From Pholiota molesta (lineage: Eukaryota > Basidiomycota > Agaricomycetes > Agaricales > Strophariaceae), in the NCBI GenBank assembly GCA_014925825.1, contig JACGCK010000014.1, positions 248,001 to 312,000 on the forward strand: a stretch of DNA of 64,000 nt. Reading direction: 5' to 3'. Shown here in pieces: positions 1 to 54,781 of this stretch. The position numbers and the translations under genes are program-made. The stretch's first letter is position 1; the number at the start of each line of letters is the position of its first letter. A model generated the notes under the pieces. The model was not told the origin of the DNA. It worked only from the letters and a program-made list of their open reading frames with translations, and ran no database searches.

Positions 1-666
1 AAAAACATATTTTTAGCATCAAATTTGACGAAGATATTAATAGTTTACGATTAAATCGTTATTTTGAGCGCTTAAAAACGCGTTTGCCCGCAGTTCAATC
101 GTTAGGCATTCGTACCTTTCGCAAACTTGCGCATAAATAGATGACATGTATATCTACAAAATGTATTTTAAATTTTATTAATTGAACAAAATCTGACTAT
201 GTTATAATAAAATCAATATTCTCTACTTGACTTCACTATTAACAAGACGCTTTTGCCAACGGTTCATTCGTTAAATAAGCTAGCCTTTCGTAAACCAGGG
301 CCAAGGTATAAAATCAAAATACCTATCTAACGAGCCTTTATACATAATATTTGGGTAAGAACTCATTGAGATACGGGCAAATGCGCTCAAGCAGTCCAAT
401 TTCTACTATTAAAATAGTTTCTATAGGTAAAATCAATTTGAAGTCGGCCCACAGACCGGTCTACAACCAGTCCTCAACCAGTCTTTAATAGGACTGGTTG
501 AGGACCGGTTTTTTGCGGTTGCTCAACCACAGAAGACCGACGTAGACCGGTTTACGTCGGTCTTGTGCGGTTTTTTGCAGTCTTTAAACTGCAGTTAACC
601 GGTTGCAGTCTCGGTCCATGGCACCTAGGGCCAAAAGACCGGACCGGACCGGACCTTCGAACACTA
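1..666 (+). mobile_element. E1: non-autonomous DNA transposon, right part (ACCGGT-type ends)
   Basis: This is the right-hand portion of a non-coding element that starts before the window. Positions 450-660 are packed with accggtc/gaccggt words on both strands, and it ends in CGAACACTA at 658-666, whose reverse complement TAGTGTTCGAAGGTCC matches the ends of E2 (TAGTGTTTGCAGGTCC) and E3 (TAGTGCTTGGAAGTCC). The 8 bases after it (ctctggat, 667-674) should be the target duplication; the left copy is outside the window. Internally it has two related motifs of about 65 bp (roughly 77-145 and 245-316), both running from CGCNTTTGCC to CTTTCG.AAAC, which recur in E2-E5. It has no ORF and is inserted in a coding exon of the gene at 667-1545. 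An 8-bp duplication fits hAT; KDZ/Zisupton elements also make 8-bp duplications, so the mobilising transposase is undecided. Confidence 0.8.
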
Positions 667-4231: not shown

Positions 4232-5134
4232 TAGTGTTTGCAGGTCCGGTCCGGTCCGGTCTTTTGCCCAAATTTGGCAAGACCGAGACCGAGACTGGTC
4301 CAGGGCAGTCTCAAGACTGCAAAAAACCGACAAAGACCGACATAGACCGGTTTATGTCGGTCTTGGGCGGTTCAGCAACTGACAAAAACCGGTCTCAACC
4401 AGTCCTAGTTAAGACTGGTTGAAAACTGGTTGTAGACCGGTCTGAACCAGCATTTTAAGCTGTATTTTACCTGTAGAAACCATTTAAATAGTAGAAATTA
4501 GACTACTTGAGCGCATTTGCCCATATCTCAGTGAGTTCATAACCAAATATTATGTGTAAGGGCTCATTAAATAGGTATTTTAATGTTCTACTTTTACCTT
4601 GGTTTTCGAAAGGCTAGCTTACTTAACGAATGAAACGTTGGCAAAAGTGTCTTGTAGTAGTCTGGTAATGTACACATCATCAATTTAATTATAACTCAGT
4701 CAAATATTGCTCGATTATTTAGGTCTAAAATGCATTACGCAGGTATATATGCCCTCCATGTATGCGCAAGTTTGCGAAAGGCACGAATGATTAATGGCTG
4801 AAACGCGGGCAAAAGCGTTTATAAGCGCCCAAAATACTCAGCTGATCGTAAACTATTAATACCTCCGTCAGTTCTTATGCTAAAAATATGGTTTTAACCT
4901 TGTTCGAAAGGGCTATTAGTGCTCTACTACGCTGCAAAAAATCTCGCAGAAAGACCGGTTGAAACCGGTCCTAACCGGTTTTTATCGGTCTTTTGATTTG
5001 GAGAATCATGAAAGACCGCGGACCGGACCGCGGTTGCGGTCTTGATCGGTCCATTCTATTTCCGGTCCACTGCGGTTATGGTCCGGTCTTTTTCCGGTCT
5101 TTTTCCGGTCTTGTAACCGGACCTGCAAACACTA
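4232..5134 (-). mobile_element. E2: non-autonomous DNA transposon (ACCGGT-type ends), 903 bp
   Basis: The terminal inverted repeats are TAGTGTTTGCAGGTCCGG at 4232 and its exact reverse complement ending at 5134. The 8-bp target duplication atgctgat is at 4224-4231 and 5135-5142. Subterminal zones (about 4245-4445 and 4945-5120) are dense in accggtc words. The centre holds the same core as E1 and E3 in reverse orientation, including both copies of the CGCTTTTGCC..CTTTCG motif. It has no ORF of note. It interrupts the KDZ transposase exon. Confidence 0.92.
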
Positions 5135-37370: not shown

Positions 37371-37402
37371 CAGGACGGAACCGCGCTAGCGGTTCCGTCC
37401 TG
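37371..37402. other. Perfect 14-bp hairpin at the LINE ORF2 terminus
   Basis: CAGGACGGAACCGC (37371-37384) and its exact reverse complement (37389-37402) flank a 4-base loop. On the LINE sense strand the loop reads TAGC and the TAG is the ORF2 stop codon. Some LINE reverse transcriptases recognise a stem-loop near their RNA 3' end; here that is an inference. Confidence 0.7.
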
Positions 37403-40400
37403 GCGGGCGTCTCCCAATACCCACTAAAACCCCGGTATTTTCAATCCAGTCGTCGGGCAGGTCCTCCCGGTTCTTCAATACTGCCCACCAGGTCTTTTCC
37501 ACTAGAGCTTTTCTGACAGCCATTTTCCCGTACTTATAGGGATTCGTTTGTAGGCACTCTAGCTGCAGCCGTCTATTTATCTGGTCCAACCATTTTCCTC
37601 GGGCCCCCTCATTGCTTAGAATTTTATCTAGGTCTCCTTCATCCTGTATTCTCCATTGACATCGGATTTTCCATATCATATGTGCAGACTCAGACATAAT
37701 TATTTTATACAGCCTATTTGCTCCAGGAAGTGGCATCTTCCCTGCTTGTGTGTGGAAGAGGTGCAGCCCACTGCCCAAGATAACACCCATGGTTGGCGGT
37801 GGCCATGGAAGCTCCCTTAGCGCCCAAAGTTCTCGAGCAGCGTTCCATATTGTCTCCTGCTGGGAGGCTCTACACCTGGTCAGGATATGCTCCAGGGTCT
37901 CATCGGCATTCCCACAGGCATGGCAGAATTGTCGTTGTTCATAGTTCGGGATATGAGCCCAAAACCTCCCTAGCTTATACGCATTGTGCATCGCCTTCCA
38001 CAGGAAGCTCCGTGCTCTCGGAGTGACACTTTTATCCCTAATAGACAGCCACACTCTCGCATCGAGTGGCGTGAGGCCATTATGATGGCCCGCTGCTTGC
38101 CTGGCTATGTCCAGGTTTACCATGGTTGCTGGACGGGCTGGCTCCCTTCTCATATTGACAATTCTCCTATAGACAATTGCCTGTGTGGCCTGGCTAATCT
38201 GCATGCCAGAGATCTGGTACTTCTGTGGCACTTCTACTGCCGCCACCACATCGCCATTTGCATTGGAGAGTGCATGTTTCAGCTTGGATCTGATTCCATT
38301 AAGTACTTGTGGGTCCGAGTTATTTCCAATTATGGTAAAGGATGTTTCGCTACAGCGCGCTCGTAGCATAGCCACTATATCCTTCATACTTGACCTATCT
38401 GGAGAGTCCTTCCAGTCAAGGTCCTCATTTTTCTCAAGGCCTATGGTTAGGCTTATGATTGTTGACCGCATATCAGTTTTTATAAGGAGGGGGGTTGAGG
38501 GGGGCGTTTGGGTGAGTAACACGGCTAGAGTGTCGCGTACACCCTTGACTATTGAACAAGGGCCAGGGTCCAATTTGAGGACCTTGTTTCTAAGGTCATC
38601 CTCTCCAAACCATAGGAGCCCGGCCAACCTGGCATTCTCATAGCCCATGTCCTGGCTTTTGCAGCTCATGTAGACCACTATCTGCTCCACAGGAAGTGTG
38701 GGCCCCAAGTCGACTTCAGGGTTCGCAGGGTGTGGGTTTGGGACAGGTGCTGGCGCAAAGTGTATGCGGATCTCCTCTAGGGGGTCCCTTCTAGACGTTG
38801 TAGCTGGGTCGAATACAATGGGAGTCCCACTTAGCAGAGCCGCTCTGTTCCTTATGGCGAGAGTCGCACCTCGCTCATCATCTGTAGCTGGTCCTGTAGG
38901 TACCCATTTACTATGGAGGCTACTCAGGAGGTTTCTACCAGCCTGGCGGCATTTTTCTGGGTGTCGGCAGCCCATTGCCCGCCCCGCCTGACATCTTGGG
39001 CAGGCACATACAGTATATCCGTTGCACCGACGGTTCTGGACAATACCTATGCCCTCCGCATAGTCACTCATTTCACCAACAGTGATAATGCCATGATTGC
39101 TCCTTTGGCATTTTTGCCACTCACCGTTGAGTATGACTCTGAAGTTCCTATTTACTCCGATATGGTACCACACTGGCATTCTGCGCTGCAGCTCAATTTG
39201 TGGGTTTATTGGGTCAAGGGCTACATTGTATGTTGCAGCTACTTTTAGCATGGTCCCGAGATTGGTGTGTAGTTCACTCTGGTTACGGAGCTTGGTCGTC
39301 CAAGACTGGAGAAACATGTTCTGGAAAGCACCCTGGTCTCTTACATTTAGTGCCCAGGGGGCATTGAGACTTATCAAGTGGTCAGCTACAAAGGCCCACT
39401 TAGGGCGCTCTGCCCCACTCTTCAGGTAGGAGCTCAGCTTTGTTAGCTGTATGGCTTCATTTCTTGCCTTTAGGTCTAGAATTTGTTTTCCTCCTGCCTC
39501 CAGTGGGGCCTGTAGGGTCTCAGCATTCACCCTCGGAGAGCTGTCATCCCATATGAAGTTTGTAATTTTTTGTTGGATGATCTTCTCAACTTCGCTGTCC
39601 ATCCCTTGGACTCTGGTTAGGTACTGTGTGAGGCCACCAACTACCATGCTAATTATGAGTCGCTTTCCTTCGATTGTGGGGTGCCCTTTTGCCCAGTTTT
39701 TAAGCCTGGCATCGATCTCTTCTATTGTGGGGCTCCACACTTCAGCATTACTGACTCCATTGCCAACATAGGCACCTAGAATTCTAGTTGGGGTTCCATC
39801 CTCGGCTATTTGCATTTCATCTGGGATAGGCAGTTGGTCATTGCTAAGCTTCCTAGTTGTTATGAGCCTAGTGCGATAGGCGACGGAGCCTACTGGAATT
39901 ATAAATGTCTTCTTTATATTAAATTTGGCTCCAGATACGGAGCACCATTTTCTTAGTATGCACAGTAGCTGTTGAAAGTCGTCAGTGGACGCGAGGTAAA
40001 CTGTTGTATCATCAGCAAAGAGTGTAGTTATCAGTCGTTCTGCCAGCTTAGGTATTTTAAAACCTTGGAGGTTAGAGTTCCGGAGCATCTGTGCAAGTGA
40101 CTCTATGGCTAGGTTGAAGATAAGGCATGAGAGCGGGTCACCTTGGCGCACTCCACAAATCACCTGGTAGGGGCTGCTGAGCACGCCATTTATCAGTACT
40201 GCAGTCGCTCCGGACTCGTAGAGGGACCGGAGTGTTTTTGTAAAATGTTGTGGAAAGTTGAGCTTATCCAGTGTTTTCCATATAAAACTATGTTGGATCT
40301 TGTTGTATGCCTTTTCTTGGTCAAGGCAGACAATCACACCATTTTCCTCGTCAGCTTCACATTTATCTAGCATCAGCTTGACAAGGTCTGTCTGGTCCTC

Positions 40401-43400
40401 AATTTTACGGCCAGTCATAAATCCTGCTTGGTCTGGGTGGATTAGATGGGGTACCACCACCGTTAACCTGGTGGTCAGTGCTAGTGCTTGGAAGTCCGGT
40501 CTCAGGACCGGAAAAAGACCGAGACTGGACCGGACCTGAACCGGAAAAGACCGGAATATTGATGGACCGGAAAAGACCGAGACCGCGGTCCGGTCCACGG
40601 TCCAACAGATTTTGAAAAGTAGATGGACCGATCAAAGACCGGTTTGGACCGGTCTCAACCGGTCTTTAGCTCTAAAATTTTGTAGACTTATAAAACGTCA
40701 AAAGTTCTTTCGAATGATGTGTAAATCGTATTTTTAGCTCAATAATTGGCGAAATTATTAATATTTTGGTTTAACTAATTACTTTGAGCGCTTAAAAACG
40801 CTTTTACCCGCAGTTAAAACGTTAAGCGCGCGAACCTTTCGCAAACTAGCGCATAGATAGAAGACGTATAGGTTTACCAGATGCAATTCAGACCTTAATA
40901 TTTGAGAAACATTTGATTGAGCTATAGTAATATCTATGTTTCCTACTCTTTTTGACTACTTTAAAGACGCTTTTGCCTATGGTTCGTTCGATATAGACTT
41001 CGCCCTGTCGCAAACTGGGGTCAAGTTAGATATTTAAATTACCTCTCTAACAAGCATACAGCCATATTATTCGGTTGAGAATTGATTGAGATATTCCAAA
41101 ATGCGCTCAATCACTGCAATTGCTAGTGTTTTAGTTGTTTCTCAGTCATTTCTCCACCGATTTTGGTATTCTTTGAAGTTCTACATACTATATACAGTAT
41201 ACTACCCAATTGTTACCAGTCTGAACCGGTCTTTGACCGGTTGAGACCGGTTTGGACCGTAACCGGTCTGAACCGGTCTTTGGACCGCTCAAGACCGCAG
41301 TGGACCGGTCTTATGCGGTCCGGTCCGGTTTTTTGAGCTTTTTAAAAATAGATGGACCGGTCTCGGTCTCGGTCCAAGCCCTTGGAGGGTAAAAGACCGG
41401 ACCGGACCGGACTTTCAAGCACTAGTCAGTGCCCTAGTCATGATTTTATAGTCAGAGTTAAGGACTGTAATAGGCCTGTAGTTACTAATCTCAGTGTTGT
41501 CGCCTTTTTTGTATATAGGGCACATCCATCCTTTTGCGAAACTTGTTGCTGGGCAGACTCCATGTCGTTCAATATCATTGTAAACTTGCGCTAGGCAGCC
41601 GACGACATCGAAGGCGGGGTTCTTATGTTGTAGATCCTTGGTGCACTTGTCTTGCATCATCTTCCACAGCTCATGTGGGATTCCGTCGATGCCAGGGGCC
41701 TTGCCATCGGGCAGTGCCTTTATGGCATTATTTATTTCCTCTTTAGTTATGTATCTGGCTAGGCTGTGCTTTTCCCGGTTTGTCAGTCCAGTGCTAAGAT
41801 GATCTAGGACACTGTTGTACTCTGCATCCCCAGCATTTTGATCGAGGCATTGGAGTTGCAGTCCATTATGGTAGTCTCGAGCTAGCTCTGCCATTTTCGA
41901 TGTAGTCCTTTCATACTCTGGTTGGTCACCTACTGGGTTCAACTTTCTCAGCATAGGGATCGTATCTCTTGGTTTTTTCTCCTTGTTGAGCCGTACCCAG
42001 AACTTGGTCATTGTTTCCATCTGGAGAGTGGCTCTTGCAGCTAGGTTATCCCTGATTGTTGTGTGGCGAAGGGCTTCGAGATACTTTATACGTTCCTCAA
42101 GGATCCCAGCACTTAGGCTCTTTTCCTCGGCTGGAAGGGCTCTATTGTTTAGTGTTTCCTTTAGCTGTCTAACTGCGAGCTGTATCTTTCCATCCAGACG
42201 GGGGGTGTACTCCCTAGAGTAGGCGCGGGCGTAATTTGTTGTTTTCTTCTTAAAGTCATAGAGGAGTGTCTGCGCATTGTGGTCATCACACCTGTTTCCG
42301 GCATCTGCCATATCCTTGAGCCTGTCCTCAAGCTCAAGCCCTAGGCGTTTTACCTCCTGTAGTACTGTTTTGTTTTTTAGGAGGTGCAGGGGGATCACCC
42401 ATCTGCCTTTGCCAATGTATGGGGATCCCGGGTTCGCGAATTCCATCGATATCAGTTTATGGTCAGTATGTATGCCAGTTGCCTTGATTTCCCAGCTGCG
42501 GCTATTTTTGATTATATGGCTCGATGCGTATATGCGGTCGATGCGTGAGCGGGACTGTGCCTCATGGCCTGGTGGTCTAGTGAAGGTGTATGCCAGCTCG
42601 GTAGGGTTCTGGTGTCTCCAGCCATCTTGCACTGAGATGTGGCTCTTAAAGATTTCCAGGTTATTTGTAGCCTGCGGACTATCACGGTGGCTGGGCAGTC
42701 TATCGATTGCATCTTCCACCATATTAAAGTCTCCTAGGAGAATGTCGGGTACTGGGAGATTTTGCTCATCCCAAACCCTGGTGAGCGTGGCCCAGAAGCC
42801 AGCATTCTCAGCACTGTCATTTGGGGCATATATCGCAAGGGTATTAATTATGGTATTTGCTTTCCATGGCAGGCATATTAGGATGGCCCTCCCTGGCACT
42901 ATTACAGTAGTGGTTGCTCCTTTCCACTCAGTGAGCTGCTTATTTAGGATGATCGCAACCCCAGCCCGGGCAGTTGGATTTTCTGGGTCAGCCGTGTTAT
43001 GTATATCCAGGCGACCATGGAACTGGTCATTTAGTAGAGCAGTGTCTTCGTCCTGGAGGTGCGTCTCCTGTACTGCAAGGATTGCGACCCTTTCCTCTCT
43101 CATTAGTTGGTTTATGTTTTGCCACTTAGCTTTCGTGGCCCTAGACCCACCCCCCTAATGTTAAGGGAGGCCACTTTCAGTACTGCTCTGGTCGTTTTAA
43201 GGTTCCGGTGGTGTTCTCGTTCATCTGCCTGTGTATTTGCTACTTCTGGTTGCAGGGCAGGGAGGTGGCCCACTGGGACCGGTTCTCCTCCATCCACCTG
43301 CTGTGCAGGGGCGGGGTACACCTGTCCTGCTTGGTTTGCAGGGGCTGGTGTTGCCAATGGTATTTCTCCAGCCACTGATTGTGTGGCTTGGTGCTCTGTG

Positions 43401-43783
43401 GTAGGAGTGTGCTGGTGTAGCTGAGCTGGTGTTGCTCGTGCATGCACTTGAGTTTGTGCAGGTGGAGGGGCGGGCTGGCCTTCATTACTATGGTTTATGA
43501 GTCTACCAAGTTCGGGATGCCCTGCCTCTCCTCGTAGGTCCTCGTCTCCGATCTCCTCCGACCCGTCATCAAAGTTGTGGCGGACAAGGACGGCACTGGC
43601 TTCTCTGGGTAGGGGAGGATAATTACCATGGCTATGTCTTTGCTCCCATATGTCTTGTGTTCCTATAGTATAATGCGTAGAAGTAAGTATATCAAGCTCA
43701 GTCCTTACCGGGGAGTATGAGTCGGATCCGTTTACCCTCGGAGTCCACAGGTTCGAACAGCGCAACGGGTCACCAACACCCAT
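37386..43783 (-). pseudogene. LINE ORF2: endonuclease / reverse transcriptase / RNase H, interrupted by E3
   Basis: The reading begins about 43783 (MGVGDPLRC; it may extend upstream). A Gln/Pro/Ala-rich linker is followed by the APE-type endonuclease: SLNIRG, QETHLQD, LLGDFNMVEDAIDR, SRSRIDRIYAS and THTDHKLI-like GIHTDHKLI. The RT has KALPDGKAPGIDG, NYRPITVLNSDYK, HPDQAGF, GVRQGDPLSCLIFN and the catalytic FADDTTVY. A RNase H-like part and a zinc-ribbon region (CHACGNADETLEHILTRC) follow. Two lesions are seen. A G6 run at about 43152-43157 should be G7 to join RGVG to SRATKAKW, which is a one-base frameshift. E3 (40482-41424) lies between MTRALT and TRLTVV. Everything else is open for more than 1,000 codons. 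Confidence 0.88.
40482..41424 (+). mobile_element. E3: non-autonomous DNA transposon (ACCGGT-type ends), 943 bp
   Basis: The terminal inverted repeats are TAGTGCTTGGAAGTCCGGTC (40482) and TAGTGCTTGAAAGTCCGGTC (reverse complement ending 41424), which match at 19 of 20 positions. The target duplication gtcagtgc is at 40474-40481 and 41425-41432. Subterminal accggtc arrays flank a non-coding core that matches E1, E2, E4 and E5. The two core motifs lie at about 40798-40860 and 40966-41025. Removing it with one duplicate restores the LINE reading frame exactly. Confidence 0.95.
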
Positions 43784-44231
43784 GGCCTTCCTCCATGAGT
43801 GTCAGTTCCCATTCCTTTGGCCCGTTCACGGCCTTTTAGCATGGGGTGTCCCCCTTTATAGTCCTCCGCTCCTAGGCTTTCCTGTGCCACAAGTGGCCAG
43901 TAAATTTGGGCCATGGAGCTGCCACGGACTTCGTTTTGCACCTGGTGCATCTGGGCATCTGCCGAGCCTTGATTTTGTGGACATCCAGCCCCTCCGAGGT
44001 CAGACCTTAGTTGATCTGCAGTGCGCAGAGTTAGGTTTATTCCATGTATACATATATGTTGAACAGGCAGCAATGTTATTCGAGGCAGGGTATTTACATG
44101 CGCGATTTACAGGATAGTGGGCAGGCAGCTACGGTATCTGTTATTTAATGTTTACTGATTGGCAGGCAAGCGAGAGGGGGAGGGCGTCGAGGCAGGAGGG
44201 CAGTTGGTGCAACAGCGGTCGCTCAGCTTGC
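43784..44231 (-). other. LINE ORF1-ORF2 spacer
   Basis: This is 448 bp between the ORF1 stop and the first Met of ORF2. In one minus-strand frame a Cys-containing segment upstream of 43783 remains open to 44073, so ORF2 may start here by reinitiation or frameshifting. No further feature. Confidence 0.4.
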
Positions 44232-46778
44232 TCAAAAGCGGCCACGGCCGCCTCGGCCACGGGCGCTGATTCCGCGACCACGCGTAGGGCCATCGTGCTG
44301 CCCTCTGCCGAACCCGCCACGGCCGGAGGAGGCACGGCGGGTGTTGTAGCCGTTGTCCTTATCAGCATCCCGTGCAAGCGGCTTAGCCTTGTGCCATCCG
44401 TCGAGGGTGTAGAGTGGGCACAGGCCTGTGGGATGGTCGAGGCCGCGGCACTGGGAGCAGTTGTAGACTGGCTGGGCAGTGGCGCGGCCCTCGATAAGGC
44501 TGGACACGAGTAGTGTCTACTTGCAGGTACCTGTGAGTCAACTCGTGGGAATACTTGCAAGTATACTGACTCGCGGATCCGGATCACTCGTTCCCACGGG
44601 TATGTCCGGATCCGAGTATGGATTTCCGGGATAGCAAATACTTGTGCAAGTACTTGTGGATATTGATATATTTAATTCTCTATGGCACTAATGATCATAT
44701 TGCTAAATTTTATCTAATTGTGACTCTAAGAAATATTTGACATGGTAATATCTGGGTAGTATAATTCAGAGAAGACAAAAATCAGTGGAAAAATGAGTGA
44801 GAAACAACTAAAATACTAGCCAATGCAGTGGTTGAGCGCATTTTGTAATATCTCAATCAATTCTCAGCCAAATATTATGGTTGTATGCTTGTTAAAAAGG
44901 TAGTTTAAATATCTAACTGTACGCCAATTTGCGAAAGGACGATGGCTATATTAAACGAAGCATAGGCAAAAGCGTCTTTAAAGTAGTCAAAAAGAGTAGA
45001 AAACATAGATACTACTATAGCTCAGCCAAATGTTGCTCAAATATTAAGGTCTAAATTGTATCCTGTGGATCTACATGTCTTCTATTTATGTGCAGGTTTG
45101 CAAAAGGTACGGGCGGTTGACGTTTGAACTGCAGGTAAAAGCGTTTTTAGACGCCCAAAGTACTTACTTAAATCAAATTATTAATAACTTTGTCAATTCT
45201 TATGCTAAAAATACAATCTTGGCATCGTTCGAAAGGACTTTTAGAGTTCTATAGGTCTATACAATTTATTTAATACATGATGCTTTGCAAGTACTTGCAA
45301 GTTTACCTGTAAGTACTCATCTCTACTTGTAAGGCAACAAGTACTTGCATACTTGCCAATACTTGTGAGTAAATACTCGCGGATCCGAGTCATCCGTGGG
45401 AAACTACTTGTACGGATCCAAGTATGAGATTTTAGGACTTCAATACTCGCGAGTAAGGATCCGCGAGACTCGCGAGTATACTCGTGTCCTGCCTTAGCCC
45501 TCGATCGTGATGTACGTGGCGGCACGGACTGCAGTGAGCCATGCACGGAAGCCCTGGTAGTCCATGGTGGGGGTTGACATGTAGATGTTGAAGTCAGTGA
45601 CAGTGGTGCCCTCGGCGGCGGTCGGGAGCTCGCGCGCTTCAATGGTGTCAGCGATGGCAGCTAGGACCTCGTCGGCTGTATAGCCAGGGTAGTTGTCGGA
45701 GAAGGTGAGGACCACCTTGCGGACCGCAGGGTTACTCTTCAGTACCCTCCCTACTTGAGTAGCGGCTGCTTCGTGGGCTCTCTCCGGGTCGAAGAAAGAG
45801 AAGCCTCGGAGGGTCATCACGAAGTTCGTTAGGAAGTACGTGGACGGGAAGGTGAAGAGGGTAAGGGAGGGCGCGCTCCAGCAGGCCCGCTCCACGAGGA
45901 TGTCAACCAACTCTCGGTCCAGGCCAGTGATCAGGTACGGGAGGATGGGTTTGCGGTCCTCGCGGGAGGCAGCCCTGCTGCCAGGAGAGCTAACTATGAG
46001 GCGCGGGCAGTCGAAGATCTGCTTGATCAGGTCTTTAACTTTCTGCGCATTCATCGCTTTGTCGGCCATCGGGGCGTCGAAGGCCAGGTAGGCTAGACAG
46101 TAGTCAGCCTCTTCAAGATCGTCCCAGAGCGCTAGGCTCTCGGCGTCAACGTTCCTGCGCAGGTCCACGGAGGTGATCCCGTAGATGGGTGGGAACCCAC
46201 CGAGGGGGGTGGGGGTGATATTGAGACTGGCGGGGGGTACAAAGCCAACCGGGATTTGTGCTGCCCATCTCACGGCATGTGCGCGCCCTCGCTTCCTGCC
46301 TTTCGCGCTCAGCAGCGGAGGTATTGGCAGCAGCGTCGTTGAAGAGGTCAGGTGCTCGCTGGGGTGCATGGATGCTCTTCGCGGTGCCATGGTCCGCCCT
46401 CGACTTGGGTGTGGGTGTGTCAAGGAGTGGTTCGGTGGGGGCCACAGCTAGGGCTGGGTTAGGGGCCGAGGCTGGCAGTGGGGGTGGCTGGGAGCTAGAT
46501 GGGTTCGGTTTCCCCACCGGAGTGCCTATGGGTGCTCGGGCGGCATCGTCTTGACCGCCTTTACGCTTGTAGCTCTTTTTCATGGGGCTACTGGTGGTTT
46601 TATGGAAGGTAAGGCCTGCGGGTATACCATTGAGGGCCGTTTGGTCGCCTCCGGTGGTGGAAGGCAGCGGGGGGGGGGGGGGGGGGTGGGCTCTGGTCGC
46701 GTCACCCATCTCCTGGTCGTCGTTTCCCCCCGGGACGTGGGGGGCAGTCTGGGGGGTTGCGTGGGTGGTCTCAGGCAT
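44232..46778 (-). pseudogene. LINE ORF1 (gag-like, zinc knuckle), interrupted by E4
   Basis: The start MPETTHATPQ is at 46778. A Pro-rich N-terminus (the plus strand shows a G17-19 run near 46670) and a helical charged segment (ERERQEARARTCREMGST) are followed by a one-base frame change near 46246. A long globular part then runs (SVDLRRNVDAESLALWDDLEE to RAATYITIEG). E4 (44495-45496) splits the protein at TIEG/GRATAQP. A cysteine cluster (CSQCRGLDHPTGLCPLYTLD) and an RGG-rich tail (GRGGFGRGQ..RGRGISARGRG) follow, suited to RNA binding. This is the ribonucleoprotein component of the LINE. Confidence 0.8.
44495..45496 (-). mobile_element. E4: non-autonomous DNA transposon (CAAGTACTTG-type ends), 1002 bp
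   Basis: The ends are TAAGGCTGGACACGAG (44495) and TAAGGCAGGACACGAG (reverse complement ending 45496). The flanking duplicate gccctcga is at 44487-44494 and 45497-45504. Subterminal regions are filled with CAAGTACTTGCAAGT, GGATCCG and ACTCGCGAGTA words instead of accggt. The core, however, is the one found in E1-E3 (reverse orientation here). It aligns end to end without indels with E5. Confidence 0.93.
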
Positions 46779-47816
46779 CTTTGGTGGCAGAGCGATGGTG
46801 GTAAATGTTCCAGGGGGTGGATACGTGCTGTTAGGTTTGGGCGTCTTTGTGGTTTGGAGGGCTTAAGAGGTGTGATTGCCAGGTATGCCTATTACTAGTA
46901 AATTAGTACTGATCAAGCATCGCGCGGGGCACGTACCTTGTCTCAGTTCATCCTTGTGGCCTGACCACCTTTAGTTTGTCTCCATTGGACCGTCCGACAG
47001 GGCGCGGGTTCCCTCAGCAGCAGTTTGGGGTATGTGGCGCGGTTCCGAGCTTCTGTCTGCCTTGGTTTACGCCCTCTACTGTGCCCTGATTCGGAGGTCT
47101 CGGGCTCTCGATGAGCCTACTATCGAGTATCACGAAGCAGGGTTAGTGGGCGGTGTGCCCACTGGCGTACCGCGCCTGGATCGTGGCATCTGCTAGGACA
47201 AGAGTGGCCTTCCCTTTCACGGCTGGCGGGGCTGCCGAGACCCAGGGGCAGGATGGGGGGTCGTTGGTGGGGACTGGCTTGCTAGGTGCTGGTTGTGAGG
47301 GGACGCGTACGGGCGCCGATTTACGGGGGGAAGGGGGGAGTTTCACACTGCTCCGTGGAGGTTATCAGCAGGTTAGCTTATTCAATTGGAGAGGGCCCTT
47401 ACTGGGGGAGGAGGTGTCGTAGGGTGTCCCAAAACCCTGGCCTGGCTGCTGTGGTGTTTGCAGTCTGGAGATGGGGGCGTTGTTCGTCCTAAAATGGAGG
47501 GTCCGCATGGGCGGCTTCCGTCGTGCTGTTATCCGTCGTGTGCTGCACCAGATCTACGTGGCTCGCAGAATCAGCGGCCTTTGAAGGTCAGTGGGGGGAG
47601 GTGGGAGGGGGGGGGCCGCGCTCAGTGCGCTGTGGATGGTTTTTGATGTGCCCAGGGATCGGGTTGGTGGGGGGCTCGTACAGGTGCGCCGTGTGGGGCA
47701 GCGGTGAGGAGGGAAGCTATCGTCTTGGCATCTTTGCTATCGGATGCTGACGTGGACCTTGCGTGGGCAGGTGACCCCGGGTGGTCCCGGCGTCAGGTCC
47801 GCGGCGTTAGGGCGGT
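46779..47816 (-). other. LINE 5' region, proximal part
   Basis: The GC-rich sequence upstream of ORF1 in the LINE is probably 5' UTR and promoter. Open frames on the plus strand here are Gly/Trp-rich and look like antisense artefacts. It continues beyond the palindromic insertion at 52615. Confidence 0.45.
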
Positions 47817-47823
47817 GACCTAG

Positions 47824-50800
47824 CACTTGTGTCTGTCAATCTCATGCATGAACCAGACTAGATTGACGAAACATAAATGTTGCATCCAGCTTCCTAACTA
47901 ACATGCACAGCCACTCCACCAAGCTGAGTTTAAAGACATTCCACTTTTGGCAGGTGGTCTTTGCTGGTCACTGGGGGCGGTGATGGTGATCACTGGAGGC
48001 TGTGCACTTGCTCACCATGCTCAACAGTGCCCCGCACTCGTCGTCGCTGTTGTCAGGGTCATCCCAAAGTGGAAATACCAAAAATAACATTTTTCCACTA
48101 TTGGTGGGATTGCAGCTGGGCAGCTGGTCCGCTCTGTTTGGGGCCCTTTGGGACAATTTTATATCGATATATGCGGATTTTGATTCTGAATACAACCGTA
48201 AAATTTTCATATTAATAGCTGCAATGGTTGACGCGCTAGACGCGAATTACTGATGGCGTAAAATTAGCGCCCACAAAGAATATTGCTTTCCTCCGCAACC
48301 GCCCAGTCGTTTTGCATGATCTTAAGTGGTATCTAGAGGTGTTAAACGTGCGCTTCGAACGCGTCCATGATCGTAATTTTACGTCCGTTCCTCGCTCCGT
48401 AAAACGCTCCGGATATATTTACGCTCGCACCGCTTTCCCGCCAGCTACGCGTTGAATATCCGCGCGCATATTATATTGTAAAATAGGTTAATATTACACC
48501 TTTCCAATGGTACCCTACTCGTTTGTATTGGAACATTCTACGCGGCGTTATTCACGAAATGGTTGTTTAATTATAGCAGGGGAACCACAAATCGCCTCAG
48601 CGAGCGCTTAGGCGCGTTGCCATCTGCTAAATTTATTGGATTTAATGACACATCGACTTTGGGGATCAGACGCCGGGAAGGTACTGAACCAGATGCTGGG
48701 CTGGCATGGATATTGGCTGGCTGGCAGGCATGATTCTATATTTAGTATTCGGGCCGAGCACGTGTCTGTTGGCTGCATGCCCGGTATATGCACCTGGGTT
48801 GGCTCGCTCAATATTGGGCGCTTAGGCACCATAATATACAGAAAGATTCATAATTTTACACTGATTTCGAATCTAAAATTTTCATATCAATAGCTGCATT
48901 CGTTAGGGCGCTAGAAGCGAATTACTGATGGCGCTTAAAATGCGCCCACAAAAGATGGCTTGTTTCTCATGAACCGGCGCTCCGTTTTGCACAATCTAAA
49001 TTGCAATATATAGATATCAATAAGACCTTTCCAACGCGATACTGATCATAATTCTCCGTCCTTTACCCGGCCCATAAAACGGCCCGCGCTATTTTGCACT
49101 CCTACATTAATAGCACGAGCTACGGGTTGAATATCCGCACAATACTTCACCATAAAATAGCTAAATAACAGATCTTTTGAACGCGGTCCTATACACCCTC
49201 TGTGAGCGACTTCCCATGGCTCCAGCAAGGAATTGATCTCGCATTAAATGGCGCGGGAACCGCATACCGCGCCGGCGCGTACTTAGGCGCGTTGGAATCA
49301 CCTGATTTTACTGGATTTAATGACACCTGGATCATGGCATTCGGAGGCCAGCAAGGTAGTGAACCAGACATGGGGCTGGCATGAATATTGCATTGCTGGC
49401 CGGAATGATACTATTTTTAGGCTTGCCGCGCTCGGCATCACCCAATCCGGGCATAGAATTGTGGCACCCTCCCCCTCCGCCCCATATTGAAAATTCGATT
49501 CCTCCCTCAATTCTTATCCTATCCTTTTGTTCTTTTTTGTATTATTATATATAAATACGGTACTATACGCCTATGCCATTGATACATTATTGCATTGCAT
49601 ATAGCATGTGTTATCCTAATATCGCTCTTTTTTCATTATTACATTGGGGCTTTTCACTGCATTTGGGATGCTTATTAGCATATATAAAGCGGTGAATAAA
49701 AAAAAGTACATATCTAACACATGTTCTGGTAGTTTAGAACCAATATAAATGCTGACCTATAGGGTTACACACATGAAAATTGGATTGGGGTACTTTCTCC
49801 TTTATGTACCCATATCTCAGCCAATATTGTCACTACAGACAGAAACAGGAGTGCGTTAAAACGGTAGCAAGGCCTATCAAATATTTCATTATACAATATT
49901 CTGACACACACCAACTACTCCAGTGATCACACCAGAATGATTAAATACAATAAATACAGAACAATATCGCCCTGTGAATGTAGTTATGCATCTAAAATTA
50001 CACGATTTTCAAGGAGTACTCTATAGCATAGGTAAAATTACCTGACCAAATTTTGAAAGACCAGTAAAAGAATTGCGACCTCTAGATAGCAAAACATCGC
50101 AAAATTCTTCGATTTCTTGAAAATGTCAGAAAATTCATGCATATCTATATACTGTTACTACTCCAAATATAGTGTAATATGCTTATCATAGCTACTAGAC
50201 ACCAATCTCACTTAACATAGGCATTTTAAAAAAAAGTTATTCATCAGAGCATATTCTAGACCACTTGAGGTGTTTAGATCATAGGGATATCTATGAATCA
50301 AGTCATACATCAAAAATATGTGGGTAGGTCGCGACATATTTGGCTCTGTAGGGTGCAGTTCTTACTCTCCTTGTCTAACTTTTGGATATGTTAGGTGGTA
50401 GATATGGTAATATAGTCACTCCGAATATCACAATATTCCAAACATAATTGAATGTGCCGGATGTATATTTCATGTTTTCTACTAGATTTAATCATTCTGC
50501 TGATATAGCTGACACAATGCATTTGGAGAACAATCGTCGATTAATAGAGTTAGAGGCAGCATGGTTAACATGCTAATGTGCCCTTGAACTTACTTGTAGC
50601 TATGGTATTGGTTGAGATATGAGTACATCAAGGAGAAAGTACCCCAATCCAATTTTCATGTGTGTAACCCTATAGGTCAGCATTTATTTTGGTGCTAAGC
50701 TACCAAGAAATGTGTTAAATATGTACCTCTACCTATTCACCGCTTTATATATGCTAATAAGCATCCCAAATGCAGTGAAAAGCCCCAATATAATACTGAA

Positions 50801-52607
50801 AAAAGCGCGATATTAAAATAACACATGCTGCATGCAATACAATAACGTATCAATGGCGTAGGCGTATAGTACCGTATCTATATAAAATAATACAAAAAAG
50901 AACAAAAGGATTGGATAAGAATTGAGGGAGGAATCGAATTTCTAATATGGGGGGGAGGGGGAGGGTGCCACTATTCTGCGCCCGAATTGGGTGATGCCGA
51001 GCACGGCAAGCCTAAAAATAGTACCATTCCGGCCAGGAAGGCAATATCCATACCCGCCCATGTCTGGTTCACTACCTTCCCGGCCTCCGAATTCCATGAT
51101 AAAGGCGTCATTAAATCCAGTAAAATCAGGCGATTTCAACGCGCCTAAGTACGCGCCGGCGCGGTATGCGGTTCCCGCGCCATTTAATGCGAGATCAATT
51201 CCTTGCTGGAGCCATGGGAAGTCGCTCACAGAGGGTGTATAGGACCGCGTTCAAAAGATCTGTTATTTAGCTATTTTATGGTGAAGTATTGTGCGGATAT
51301 TCAACCCGTAGCTCGTGCTATTAATGTAGGAGTGCAAAATAGCGCGGGCCGTTTTATGGGCCGGGTAAAGGACGGAGAATTATGATCAGTATCGCGTTGG
51401 AAAGGTCTTATTGATATCTATATATTGCAATTTAGATTGTGCAAAACGGAGCGCCGGTTCATGAGAAACAAGCCATCTTTTGTGGGCGCATTTTAAGCGC
51501 CATCAGTAATTCGCTTCTAGCGCCCTAACGAATGCAGCTATTGATATGAAAATTTTAGATTCGAAATCAGTGTAAAATTATGAATCTTTCTGTATATTAT
51601 GGTGCCTAAGCGCCCAATATTGAGCGAGCCAACCCAGGTGCATATACCGGGCATGCAGCCAACAGACACGTGCTCGGCCCGAATACTAAATATAGAATCA
51701 TGCCTGCCAGCCAGCCAATATCCATGCCAGCCCAGCATCTGGTTCAGTACCTTCCCGGCGTCTGATCCCCAAAGTCGATGTGTCATTAAATCCAATAAAT
51801 TTAGCAGATGGCAACGCGCCTAAGCGCTCGCTGAGGCGATTTGTGGTTCCCCTGCTATAATTAAACAACCATTTCGTGAATAACGCCGCGTAGAATGTTC
51901 CAATACAAACGAGTAGGGTACCATTGGAAAGGTGTAATATTAACCTATTTTACAATATAATATGCGCGCGGATATTCAACGCGTAGCTGGCGGGAAAGCG
52001 GTGCGAGCGTAAATATATCCGGAGCGTTTTACGGAGCGAGGAACGGACGTAAAATTACGATCATGGACGCGTTCGAAGCGCACGTTTAACACCTCTAGAT
52101 ACCACTTAAGATCATGCAAAACGACTGGGCGGTTGCGGAGGAAAGCAATATTCTTTGTGGGCGCTAATTTTACGCCATCAGTAATTCGCGTCTAGCGCGT
52201 CAACCATTGCAGCTATTAATATGAAAATTTTACGGTTGTATTCAGAATCAAAATCCGCATATATCGATATAAAATTGTCCCAAAGGGCCCCAAACAGAGC
52301 GGACCAGCTGCCCAGCTGCAATCCCACCAATAGTGGAAAAATGTTATTTTTGGTATTTCCACTTTGGGATGACCCTGACAACAGCGACGACGAGTGCGGG
52401 GCACTGTTGAGCATGGTGAGCAAGTGCACAGCCTCCAGTGATCACCATCACCGCCCCCAGTGACCAGCAAAGACCACCTGCCAAAAGTGGAATGTCTTTA
52501 AACTCAGCTTGGTGGAGTGGCTGTGCATGTTAGTTAGGAAGCTGGATGCAACATTTATGTTTCCCTAGTTGACATGATTCCATGTAGAATATTAACAGAC
52601 AAGGCTG
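47824..52607. mobile_element. 4.8 kb near-palindromic non-coding element
   Basis: Arms from about 47872 to 49830 and 50600 to 52559 are inverted copies. From 47872-49230 they pair with 51201-52559 with no indel, and every short ORF in one arm has an identical counterpart in the other. The inner parts (49230-49830) have diverged and the central 0.77 kb is unique. The outer 48 bp on each side differ (CACTTGTGTCTGTCAATC against CAGCCTTGTCTGTTAATA). Flanks carry a 7-8 bp duplicate (tgacctag / ggacctag). Each arm itself contains two related units (about 51040-51370 and 51690-52040). No gene. It is inserted in the LINE 5' region. Confidence 0.85.
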
Positions 52608-53779
52608 GACCTAGTCAGGTGCTCCAATGGCAATTGGGTCGGGTCCACCGGGAAGAGGGGCCCGGCCGGAGCACCCGGGCCGTAGCTCCTCGCCATCACA
52701 GGCCTTGTATCATGGGCAAATCATTGGGCATGTTGCCTATTTTGTTTTACTTTGTAATGTTCCCTGGTTCCCATATTGGGGTCTTGTGTGCATGGGGCCC
52801 CAGGTGGTAGACATTTGTAGCTTATGGCTGTTTCGCTACAGGCAGCTTTGACGTGATCTTAGGGTGGTCTCAGGGGGAGATAGGGGAGGGGGGGAGGTGT
52901 TTATTTGATAGTCTTGGGGGTCTTGGAGGTAGGGCACCATTGGGTTCTAGGGTCAGCTAGTGGTGTGTGATGTGGGATGTACTATCTATTGCTTAGTGTG
53001 GGTTTCAGATGTTTTTTCGGGGCTGGAATGGTGGTTGACTTAATTGCATAATTGGGTTTGTGCTCAGGGTTTGGGGCTTCTGGCCTTTATAAGGAGCAGG
53101 TGCTTATGATGTTTCGCTATAATCTATTGCCTAGTTTCCCTATAGGCCTCGTCATTCTTTCAGTATCACCTTCATTTCTTCTTACTCGTTCTGAAGCGTG
53201 GAGTCCACTATGGGGACCCTTGATATCTTCGCAGCCATGAGCTACCAACGCGTCACTATTTATGGTGGTAGCCGCCACCAGTTTCATGAGAGATGGGTGA
53301 TGGGGGAGAGGGCAAAGAGGGGGGTGCGGTTGGGGGACGTGGTGTGGATATATGACCACAGGCGGAGGGCAGGATTTCCCCCTATGCAGATGGGGAAAGT
53401 GACCGAGTTCATTTATCAGGATAGCGCCTTTGTTGAGGTCCGCATTAGGGAGGATATGGGGGTCTCGGACGAGGGCTTGGCCGCGGAATTAGCCTGGGGG
53501 TAGATTCCTTCATCACGTTGGTGGTCCCAGTCTGTTGGTTCAGTTTTGGGATATGTGGGCAGATCGCCTATAGCTTCAAGTACCGCTTCCTGCCCCTGTT
53601 CTCTCCGAAACATGGTCTGGTATGTGGTTTTATTTGCTTCGGTTTGGTTTTTCATTAAACTTGGATTTTTATAGCTGGAGTATGAGAGGACAGATTGGTT
53701 CGCAGCTCCGGATATGGGGGCCAAGGGTTTAGCTCAGCGCGGGCACTCTTAGTGGCTATTTGCAGTATGCAGGGGGAAT
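52608..53779 (-). other. LINE 5' region, distal part
   Basis: The GC-rich LINE sequence continues between the palindromic element and E5. A plus-strand ORF (53198-53503) reads plausibly (GVRLGDVVWIYDHRRRAG) but is antisense to the LINE and has no supporting start, so I do not annotate it as a gene. Confidence 0.4.
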
Positions 53780-53780
53780 T

Positions 53781-54781
53781 AAGGCAGGACACGAGTATAC
53801 TCGCGAGTCTCGCGGATCCTTACTCGCGAGTATTGAAGTCCTAAAATCTCATACTTGGATCCGTACAAGTAGTTTCCCACGGATGACTCGGATCCGCGAG
53901 TATTTACTCACAAGTATTGGCAAGTATGCAAGTACTTGTTGCCTTACAAGTAGAGATGAGTACTTACAGGTAAACTTGCAAGTACTTGCAAAGCATCATG
54001 TATTAAATAAATTGTATAGACCTATAGAACTCTAAAAGTCCTTTCGAACGATGCCAAGATTGTATTTTTAGCATAAGAATTGACAAAGTTATTAATAATT
54101 TGATTTAAGTAAGTACTTTGGGCGTCTAAAAACGCTTTTACCTGCAGTTCAAACGTCAACCGCCCGTACCTTTTGCAAACCTGCACATAAATAGAAGACA
54201 TGTAGATCCACAGGATACAATTTAGACCTTAATATTTGAGCAACATTTGGCTGAGCTATAGTAGTATCTATGTTTTCTACTCTTTTTGACTACTTTAAAG
54301 ACGCTTTTGCCTATGCTTCGTTTAATATAGCCATCGTCCTTTCGCAAATTGGCGTACAGTTAGATATTTAAACTACCTTTTTAACAAGCATACAACCATA
54401 ATATTTGGCTGAGAATTGATTGAGATATTACAAAATGCGCTCAACCACTGCATTGGCTAGTATTTTAGTTGTTTCTCACTCATTTTTCCACTGATTTTTG
54501 TCTTCTCTGAATTATACTACCCAGATATTACCATGTCAAATATTTCTTAGAGTCACAATTAGATAAAATTTAGCAATATGATCATTAGTGCCATAGAGAA
54601 TTAAATATATCAATATCCACAAGTACTTGCACAAGTATTTGCTATCCCGGAAATCCATACTCGGATCCGGACATACCCGTGGGAACGAGTGATCCGGATC
54701 CGCGAGTCAGTATACTTGCAAGTATTCCCACGAGTTGACTCACAGGTACCTGCAAGTAGACACTACTCGTGTCCAGCCTTA
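53781..54781 (+). mobile_element. E5: non-autonomous DNA transposon (CAAGTACTTG-type ends), 1001 bp
   Basis: The ends are AAGGCAGGACACGAG (53781) and TAAGGCTGGACACGAG (reverse complement ending 54781). The duplicate ggggaatt is at 53773-53780 and 54782-54789. It is the mirror-orientation twin of E4, with an identical 86-residue open stretch in the corresponding position. Core motifs lie at about 54130-54189 and 54300-54356. It is inserted in the LINE 5' region. Confidence 0.92.

Follow-up and report, generated by a model that had tools for sequence, protein, structure and literature searches.

A stretch of 64,000 bp of the Pholiota molesta genome (GenBank assembly GCA_014925825.1, contig JACGCK010000014.1; C46:248001-312000, hereafter the window) was found to carry miniature inverted-repeat transposable elements (MITEs), designated E1 to E5, in which the same internal core is enclosed by two different kinds of terminal array. 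These are hAT-type non-autonomous elements with short terminal inverted repeats (TIRs), 8-bp target site duplications (TSDs) and no transposase gene. It is very likely that a single core lineage in this genome is enclosed by ends from two hAT lineages, with one end family (B, represented by E4 and E5) having been derived from within another (A, represented by E3). The window holds four complete elements (E2-E5) and the right part of one (E1), for which the following features were identified (window coordinates; the long elements and L099 named here are described below).

1..666, + strand: E1, family D, TAGTGTTCGAAGG ends, ACCGGT array; core at 1-430, right end at approximately 431-666, left end upstream of the window
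4232..5134, - strand: E2, family C, TAGTGTTTGCAGG ends, 903 bp, TSD ATGCTGAT
4475..4926, - strand: core of E2
40482..41424, + strand: E3, family A, TAGTGCTTGGAAG ends, 943 bp, TSD GTCAGTGC
40482..40671, + strand: left ACCGGT array of E3, with 77% identity over 187 bp to the A-type long element (right end)
40675..41177, + strand: core of E3, 503 bp, with an apparent cryptic repeat of about 3 x 168 bp and a 10.5-bp A/T dinucleotide period
41204..41424, + strand: right ACCGGT array of E3, with 78% identity over 201 bp to the A-type long element (left end)
44495..45496, - strand: E4, family B, TAAGGC ends, 1002 bp, TSD GCCCTCGA
44765..45267, - strand: core of E4
53780..54781, + strand: E5, family B, 1002 bp, with only a 7-bp direct repeat (GGGGAAT) at its borders
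53780..53998, + strand: left TAAGGC end of E5, with 87% identity over 228 bp to the B-type long element L093 (left end)
54009..54511, + strand: core of E5
54533..54781, + strand: right end of E5, an array plus approximately 85 bp of hAT-B sequence lacking array words, with 87.5% identity to L093 over 232 bp and 90.5% to L099 over 253 bp

The coordinates of the initial annotation were exact to the base, apart from E5 beginning one base earlier (at 53780) and E1 being only a partial element, namely the right 666 bp of a 905-bp element at C46:247762-248666 (TSD 8/8). The target duplications of E2, E3 and E4 and the 7-bp repeat of E5 were read directly from the sequence. E4 and E5 are in opposite orientation and identical over 1,002 bp (100%).

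That annotation had described the same internal sequence in all five elements, and homology was indeed found to be continuous along the core, at 69-84%, and not limited to short motifs. The cores of E3 and E5 share 83.9% identity over 503 bp in a gapless alignment, that of E1 is 71-72% identical to those of E3, E4 and E5 over 420-422 bp, and that of E2 is 69% identical to E4/E5 over 458 bp, while the alignment of E2 with E3 (70% over 674 bp) includes the left end. Local alignment scores of three core pairs lay 59-264 standard deviations above dinucleotide shuffles. In contrast, four comparisons of E3 ends with E5 ends gave z values of -0.8 to 0.4 against shuffles, i.e. no likeness. E3 and E2, with cores 71% alike, have ends that are 80% (left) and 74% (right) alike. 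As the ends of E3 and E2 stay similar despite more distant cores while those of E3 and E5 score as shuffles, the E3-E5 difference is not accounted for by point mutation of the ends. Ends were conserved as well as cores or better between related families and were mostly more conserved than cores within families, the exception being the right ends of A (11.8% versus 12.2% mean divergence).

The assembly (65.6 Mb, 625 contigs) was searched with the core and the copies were sorted by their ends, which revealed six end families in two terminus classes around the one core. A set of 101 core copies of at least 280 bp was obtained from three core searches (40 places scored in each, of 167-185 candidates) and from regional sequence, shorter fragments being dropped. 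Duplicate entries for a place were removed, as was one tandem fragment, with C2:625691 still counted twice (L023, L059) and some segmental duplicates (C113, C15) included. By end family, these comprise 27 copies of A, 30 of B, 29 of C, 10 of D, four of F and one of G. In 79 copies (A 24, B 24, C 21, D 8, F 1, G 1), both ends were located and started with the expected bases; a TSD matching at 8/8 positions was found in 70 (A 23, B 22, C 17, D 6, F 1, G 1), with a 7/8 match in five and none in 26, the latter including truncated or nested copies, copies with an unfound end and E5 itself. For those copies of A, B, C and D that were listed as having a duplication, 14-16 of the 16 terminal bases match between the TIRs. 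Across the genome, with up to two mismatches, the TIR pattern TAAGGCNGGACACGAGTA was matched 97 times (reversed-pattern control, 8) and the A terminus 183 times (control, 1), and exact C/D-like termini were found 66 times (control, 0).

Families A (E3), C (E2) and D (E1) form the TAGTG class, all with ACCGGT arrays, and families B (E4/E5), F (L098, L060-L062) and G (L100) form the TAAGGC class; the array words of the ends were as the initial annotation gave them. Within the TAAGGC class, the words are CAAGTACTTG and GGATCC in B, CAGGTACCTG and ACCCGCGGGT in F, and CAAGTACTTG-like without GGATCC in G, and there seems to have been word drift between B (CAAGTACTTG) and F (CAGGTACCTG). The G core lacks its right half, and the element carrying it still has a TSD of 8/8. 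A G core at 91% or more was located at 13 places, of which the one that was read (C7) has TAAGGC ends; by coordinates alone, a further five (C95, C64, C295, C186, C168) adjoin TAAGGC-type termini among the matches listed by a scan allowing up to three mismatches (132 matches; reversed-pattern control, 30). Family B has a single end on each side, with no complete element flanking it as in a composite transposon.

A search for long elements with matching ends identified one hAT element bearing a transposase-like gene for each of the end kinds A and B.

C3:131656-137477: B-type long element L093, 5.8 kb, B-type termini at both ends, 87% identical to E5 over 228 and 232 bp
C224:211661-215758: A-type long element (L102 and L103), 4,098 bp, TSD 8/8 TACTCGTC, ends 77-78% identical to E3 over 201 and 187 bp

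L093 encodes a spliced hAT-like gene whose dimerisation domain is split by an intron, the halves giving E-values of 0.004 and 0.0045, each under the Pfam cut-off, while the last exon of the A-type element matched PF05699 (E 2.9e-10) and Hermes (E 0.005). The two transposases are distant, the L093 protein and the A-type exon sharing 38% identity over 69 residues (E 4e-4). For one of the transposases, the nearest named relatives are from Lyophyllum shimeji (58%), Hypsizygus and Tricholomella. Four cross comparisons of the end kinds with the opposite long element scored as shuffles (z -0.5 to 1.2). The core was found in neither long element, twelve comparisons giving z -1.5 to 2.6 (20 shuffles each) versus 59-264 between cores. 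The ends of C and D match a long hAT only through 69-76% similarity to the A-type long element. As Hermes uses BED domains that act on subterminal repeats (PMC10368747, in the part of the article available), the ACCGGT and TAAGGC-class arrays are probably transposase recognition sites. The proposal of one core that acquired ends recognised by two different transposases is thus supported, in that each end kind matches a different long hAT element, with recognition itself being predicted.

A pair of TAGTGTT-type termini 6.2 kb apart (C555:615634-621862) is a candidate long partner of C/D, with no hAT-A match listed there. At C2:563409-571376, a hAT-A transposase-like gene has exon matches on both sides of a B MITE (C2:564991-565990), and this B element is, as judged from these matches, nested in a hAT-A element.

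The initial annotation had also offered the alternative that ends evolve by wholesale word replacement. Such a change in place, in which array words would mutate in step with a changing transposase, could draw on the related words of B and F within the TAAGGC class. It fits poorly with ends that are mostly as conserved as cores or more so and evolve no faster than them, with the contrast between the E3-E5 ends and the E3-E2 ends described above, and with the ends of B matching a long hAT even outside the arrays, and is regarded as very improbable.

A tree of the cores (102 rows) indicated the direction of one switch. The 30 B cores were nested among A cores, B grouping with L069/L070 (support 98/79) within a 43-row set of B and A (99/97). 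This set consists of 30 B cores, 12 A cores and an A fragment (L027_824) that had first been labelled B. In tests on 86 rows, with B thinned, A as one clade was rejected (approximately unbiased, AU, p 0.0044), as were all TAGTG-ended cores as one clade (AU p 0.00018). TAAGGC-class ends occur at three places of the tree (B, G and F), the G core grouping with C/D, and at least three changes of end class are needed. The ends of L069 and L070 are 96-98% identical to those of E3, and A is therefore a single family by its ends. Among A copies, the end tree and the core tree reject each other, the end tree having many near-zero branches, and of the 90 positions at which L004 differs from L070, 86 lie between 191 and 729. 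Core exchange among A copies is not claimed, since slower end divergence was also found in C, D and B, and constraint alone may explain it.

The borders of the core in B were compared with those of the other families. Family B consists of approximately 220 and 250 bp of hAT-B ends around an A-type core, with no A array word remaining at the junctions. At the right junction of E5, the A core reaches, after a gap of about 20 bp, the sequence TACTACCCAGATATTACCA, where the first A array word would begin, and is directly followed by hAT-B sequence. At the left junction, hAT-B homology stops at about position 218 of the element and A homology begins at 229. Four arrays were folded and proved much more stable than shuffled sequence (z -4.6 to -9.0).

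Each element can be viewed as three modules, namely a left array of probable transposase sites, the core and a right array. The hAT-A transposase would mobilise A (and probably C and D) through the ACCGGT sites, while the hAT-B transposase would mobilise B. Gap repair following excision of a hAT-B element would copy the hAT-B ends, with a template switch at the hairpin-forming array border into the core of an A element, and then back; the hairpin-forming arrays may cause the copying polymerase to leave its template at this border. The resulting new MITE would have been multiplied by hAT-B. Recurrence of the same core may be due to it acting as a DNA-architecture module that likely positions nucleosomes between the arrays, so that elements capturing it spread well. 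When its claims are weighed together, this explanation of modular hAT MITEs, with a core captured by new ends and serving as an architecture module, is held to be moderately probable, while for template switching as the route of the end switch the balance tilts slightly the other way.

Homologous exchange would provide a different route, in which TAAGGC and TAGTG elements each obtained the core in a single event long ago and gene conversion later replaced the old core of B with that of A, the junctions lying at the array borders because homology ends there. This would be consistent with the left core border, which as judged by eye occupies approximately the same alignment column in each of the six families irrespective of the array, and with the divergent cores carried by the TAAGGC families F and G. 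However, some 23 bp of core edge, extending to the first array word of A, are common to A and B and absent from C, D and F, and the hAT-B sequence directly after this edge is without array words, an arrangement that homology-limited conversion does not easily give. Exchange is rated as possible and on the unlikely side. It was also considered whether the core could be mobile in its own right and have inserted into different MITEs, as it is the sole part common to both end classes. Every core stretch of at least 280 bp, however, has array words on at least one side, the borders are similar in all families with no duplication around the core (by eye), and no stop-free frame above 68 aa was found in the six family cores, making this reading hardly credible. 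The same lack of longer frames led to a coding core being rejected.

Several observations weigh against the capture of an A core by hAT-B ends through template switching. Eleven bases at E5 218-229 fall in neither hAT-B nor A homology, and no intermediate of the end switch was identified among the elements read. By eye, no matching target duplication was found for L093, which is thus an old or damaged copy. Transposase binding and excision are predictions from sequence. A clade of C and D without G was not rejected (AU p 0.16), and exchange between older TAAGGC and TAGTG elements already bearing the core would fit as well.

Further arrangements were observed around copies of these elements. 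A third type of terminal array, with CCAGTGGTT words, flanks the B element in L023 and was also identified in L063 (600-2330) and L066 (600-2310). In the latter two, CCAGTGGTT arrays enclose a fragment of a C element, comprising one end and some of the core, next to further AT-rich sequence. Such a composite illustrates a way in which mixed elements can arise. In L060 (2130-2290), another TAAGGC-like terminus, with ACCTGCGGGT words, follows the truncated end of a C element. Three F and C element copies at a spacing of approximately 8.5 kb (L060-L062, C113:480470-503025) resemble a tandem segmental duplication. A truncated A element with an internal tandem duplication (ends spaced 446 bp) directly adjoins a B element in L027 (1-1270). 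The CpG of array words is often TpG or CpA in L064 (2160-2560; ACCAGT for ACCGGT), which suggests methylation-type decay of older copies. E3 is flanked (window 37386-43103) by frames matching reverse transcriptase (PF00078) and endonuclease (PF03372), and probably interrupts a retrotransposon without long terminal repeats. Lastly, L094-L097 and L099 are TAAGGC elements with GC-rich middles in place of the core (L095 and L096 known by end matches only), some short stretches of which resemble, by eye, the non-coding part of L093.

Self-comparison suggests that the core is made up of about three diverged units of 168 bp. At lags of 40 to 400, the top lag was 168/169 or 336/337 bp in all seven cores examined from the six families (z 3.5-7.2), the F core being longer by about one unit. 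Tandem monomers, as in a satellite, are thus present in diverged form; long free arrays of the core were not seen in five core searches with 40 places scored of 165-185 candidates each, in assemblies that can lose arrays. No consistent RNA fold was identified, with z -2.3 to +0.5 for 11 of 12 strands and -4.5 for the plus strand of E3 only, and no Rfam match at the gathering threshold was found within the window; an RNA function of the core was rejected.

A/T dinucleotides were found to recur along the core at the helical scale. A period of 10.5 bp was the strongest in the range of 5-25 bp in five of the six cores and the second strongest in F. Its power exceeded that of all 224 control windows in the same five, with F at 1.3% of controls, and a finer scan gave 11.1-19.8 for the six cores. 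Across all copies, the top period lay at 10.3-10.7 bp in 91 of 101 cores versus 14 of 149 flank stretches. Shuffle p values for the period (0.003 to 0.11) are affected by the tandem units, and window and flank controls were used besides. Phase scores between cores were above the prediction of random substitution in all 30 ordered pairs (z 0.55-3.14; 19 at p <= 0.05), pairs which are not independent of each other, while seven other periods, with six pairs each and a simpler null, gave z -1.5 to 1.7. Antiphase of WW and SS dinucleotides was discarded as evidence, being present in 101/101 cores and also in 88/149 controls, since the two classes exclude each other.

A/T phasing at 10.5 bp is the textbook appearance of nucleosome-positioning DNA, and this phase with its slow decay is, as a prediction from the base sequence, a nucleosome-phasing signature. 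The core could be a selected chromatin cassette, whose three 168-bp units (16 x 10.5 bp) would hold phased nucleosomes between exposed transposase arrays. As such a benefit would be independent of which transposase reads the ends, the core would have moved between at least two hAT lineages and several end families. This proposal is tentative and rather doubtful. Counting against it, unit-by-unit alignment was clearly above shuffles only in F (units 1-2 and 2-3) and C (units 1-3) and not for most other pairs, so that the units are old, and the autocorrelation peak of G (z 3.5) is barely over the next lag (3.3). Controls in the finer scan reached 14.7 (523 overlapping windows) and 11.6 (50 AT-rich windows), and the half-core of G is without the 10.5-bp signal (power 1.2; 4.9 in the finer scan). 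Cores also diverge faster than ends in most families, and most core letters are thus not under strong constraint.

This last observation is also in keeping with the core being passive filler, a high-copy AT-rich stretch taken up by chance in repair, with a periodicity that was inherited and unselected. The unrelated GC-rich middles of the other TAAGGC elements (L094-L097, L099) and the half-core G element, which was still transposed, point the same way. Against chance uptake, the same core is present in three TAAGGC families and the 10.5-bp phase decays more slowly than random substitution predicts, although nucleosome-dependent mutation bias could mimic slow phase decay. Opinion on passive filler is evenly divided, and it is at least as likely as a core kept for a chromatin property.

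In hAT non-autonomous elements, ends and partner normally match and the middle varies, whereas in the fungal elements the middle is common to different partners. The 8-bp duplications, short TIRs and short motifs near the ends are likewise features of elements such as Ds and of Hermes ends (PMC10368747, available portion). The initial annotation had stated that no family with this modularity was known, which is answered in part by the CMITEs of Acropora corals (PMC2872659). According to the available part of that article, these are MITE families with different TIRs and one conserved inside of unexplained origin; they are of piggyBac type, with TTAA duplications, a 75-bp inside and TIRs of 13-14 bp sharing CC[C/T]T, and one family is linked to a named piggyBac-like transposon. 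They represent a partial precedent. The fungal elements have variable 8-bp duplications and TAGTG or TAAGGC termini, not TTAA duplications or CC[C/T]T termini, and differ in their core of about 500 bp, their ends of about 200 bp from two hAT lineages, each of which has a long partner, and a tree that gives the direction of one switch. The P-MITEs of Anopheles gambiae (PMC1562414) likewise have the ends of a master transposon around a foreign inside, for which ectopic-template repair was proposed; in the accessible text, that inside is without similarity to the master and no source is named for it, whereas the source of the fungal core is another MITE family and the core recurs. The CERP2 and CELE2 MITEs of Caenorhabditis (PMC9757741) have been described as having a TT bias with a 10-bp period, a feature associated with strong nucleosome positioning; they are other elements in another host and are tied to germline promoters, the part of the article available mentioning neither a 168-bp tandem unit nor end exchange. 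Tetris of Drosophila virilis (PMC4079207), a mobile element tied to satellite-like tandem repeats, and the oyster Helentrons (PMC7492417), with satellite-like arrays, are not stated in the portions available to have a core common to families of different transposases. No report of hAT MITEs with one core and the ends of two hAT lineages was found among the records listed for open PubMed Central text, most subscription papers lying outside this search.

MITEs are named and traced by their ends, a practice that would hide an inside's own history across transposase families. Here, the donor family of a MITE inside is known and the junctions are placed nearly at base level, which opens the origin of MITE interiors to testing. 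Were the helical phasing under selection, non-autonomous elements would carry chromatin architecture and not mere filler, which could explain why only some MITEs spread. Should the core indeed be a chromatin cassette, it would be a transposable module of transposable elements.

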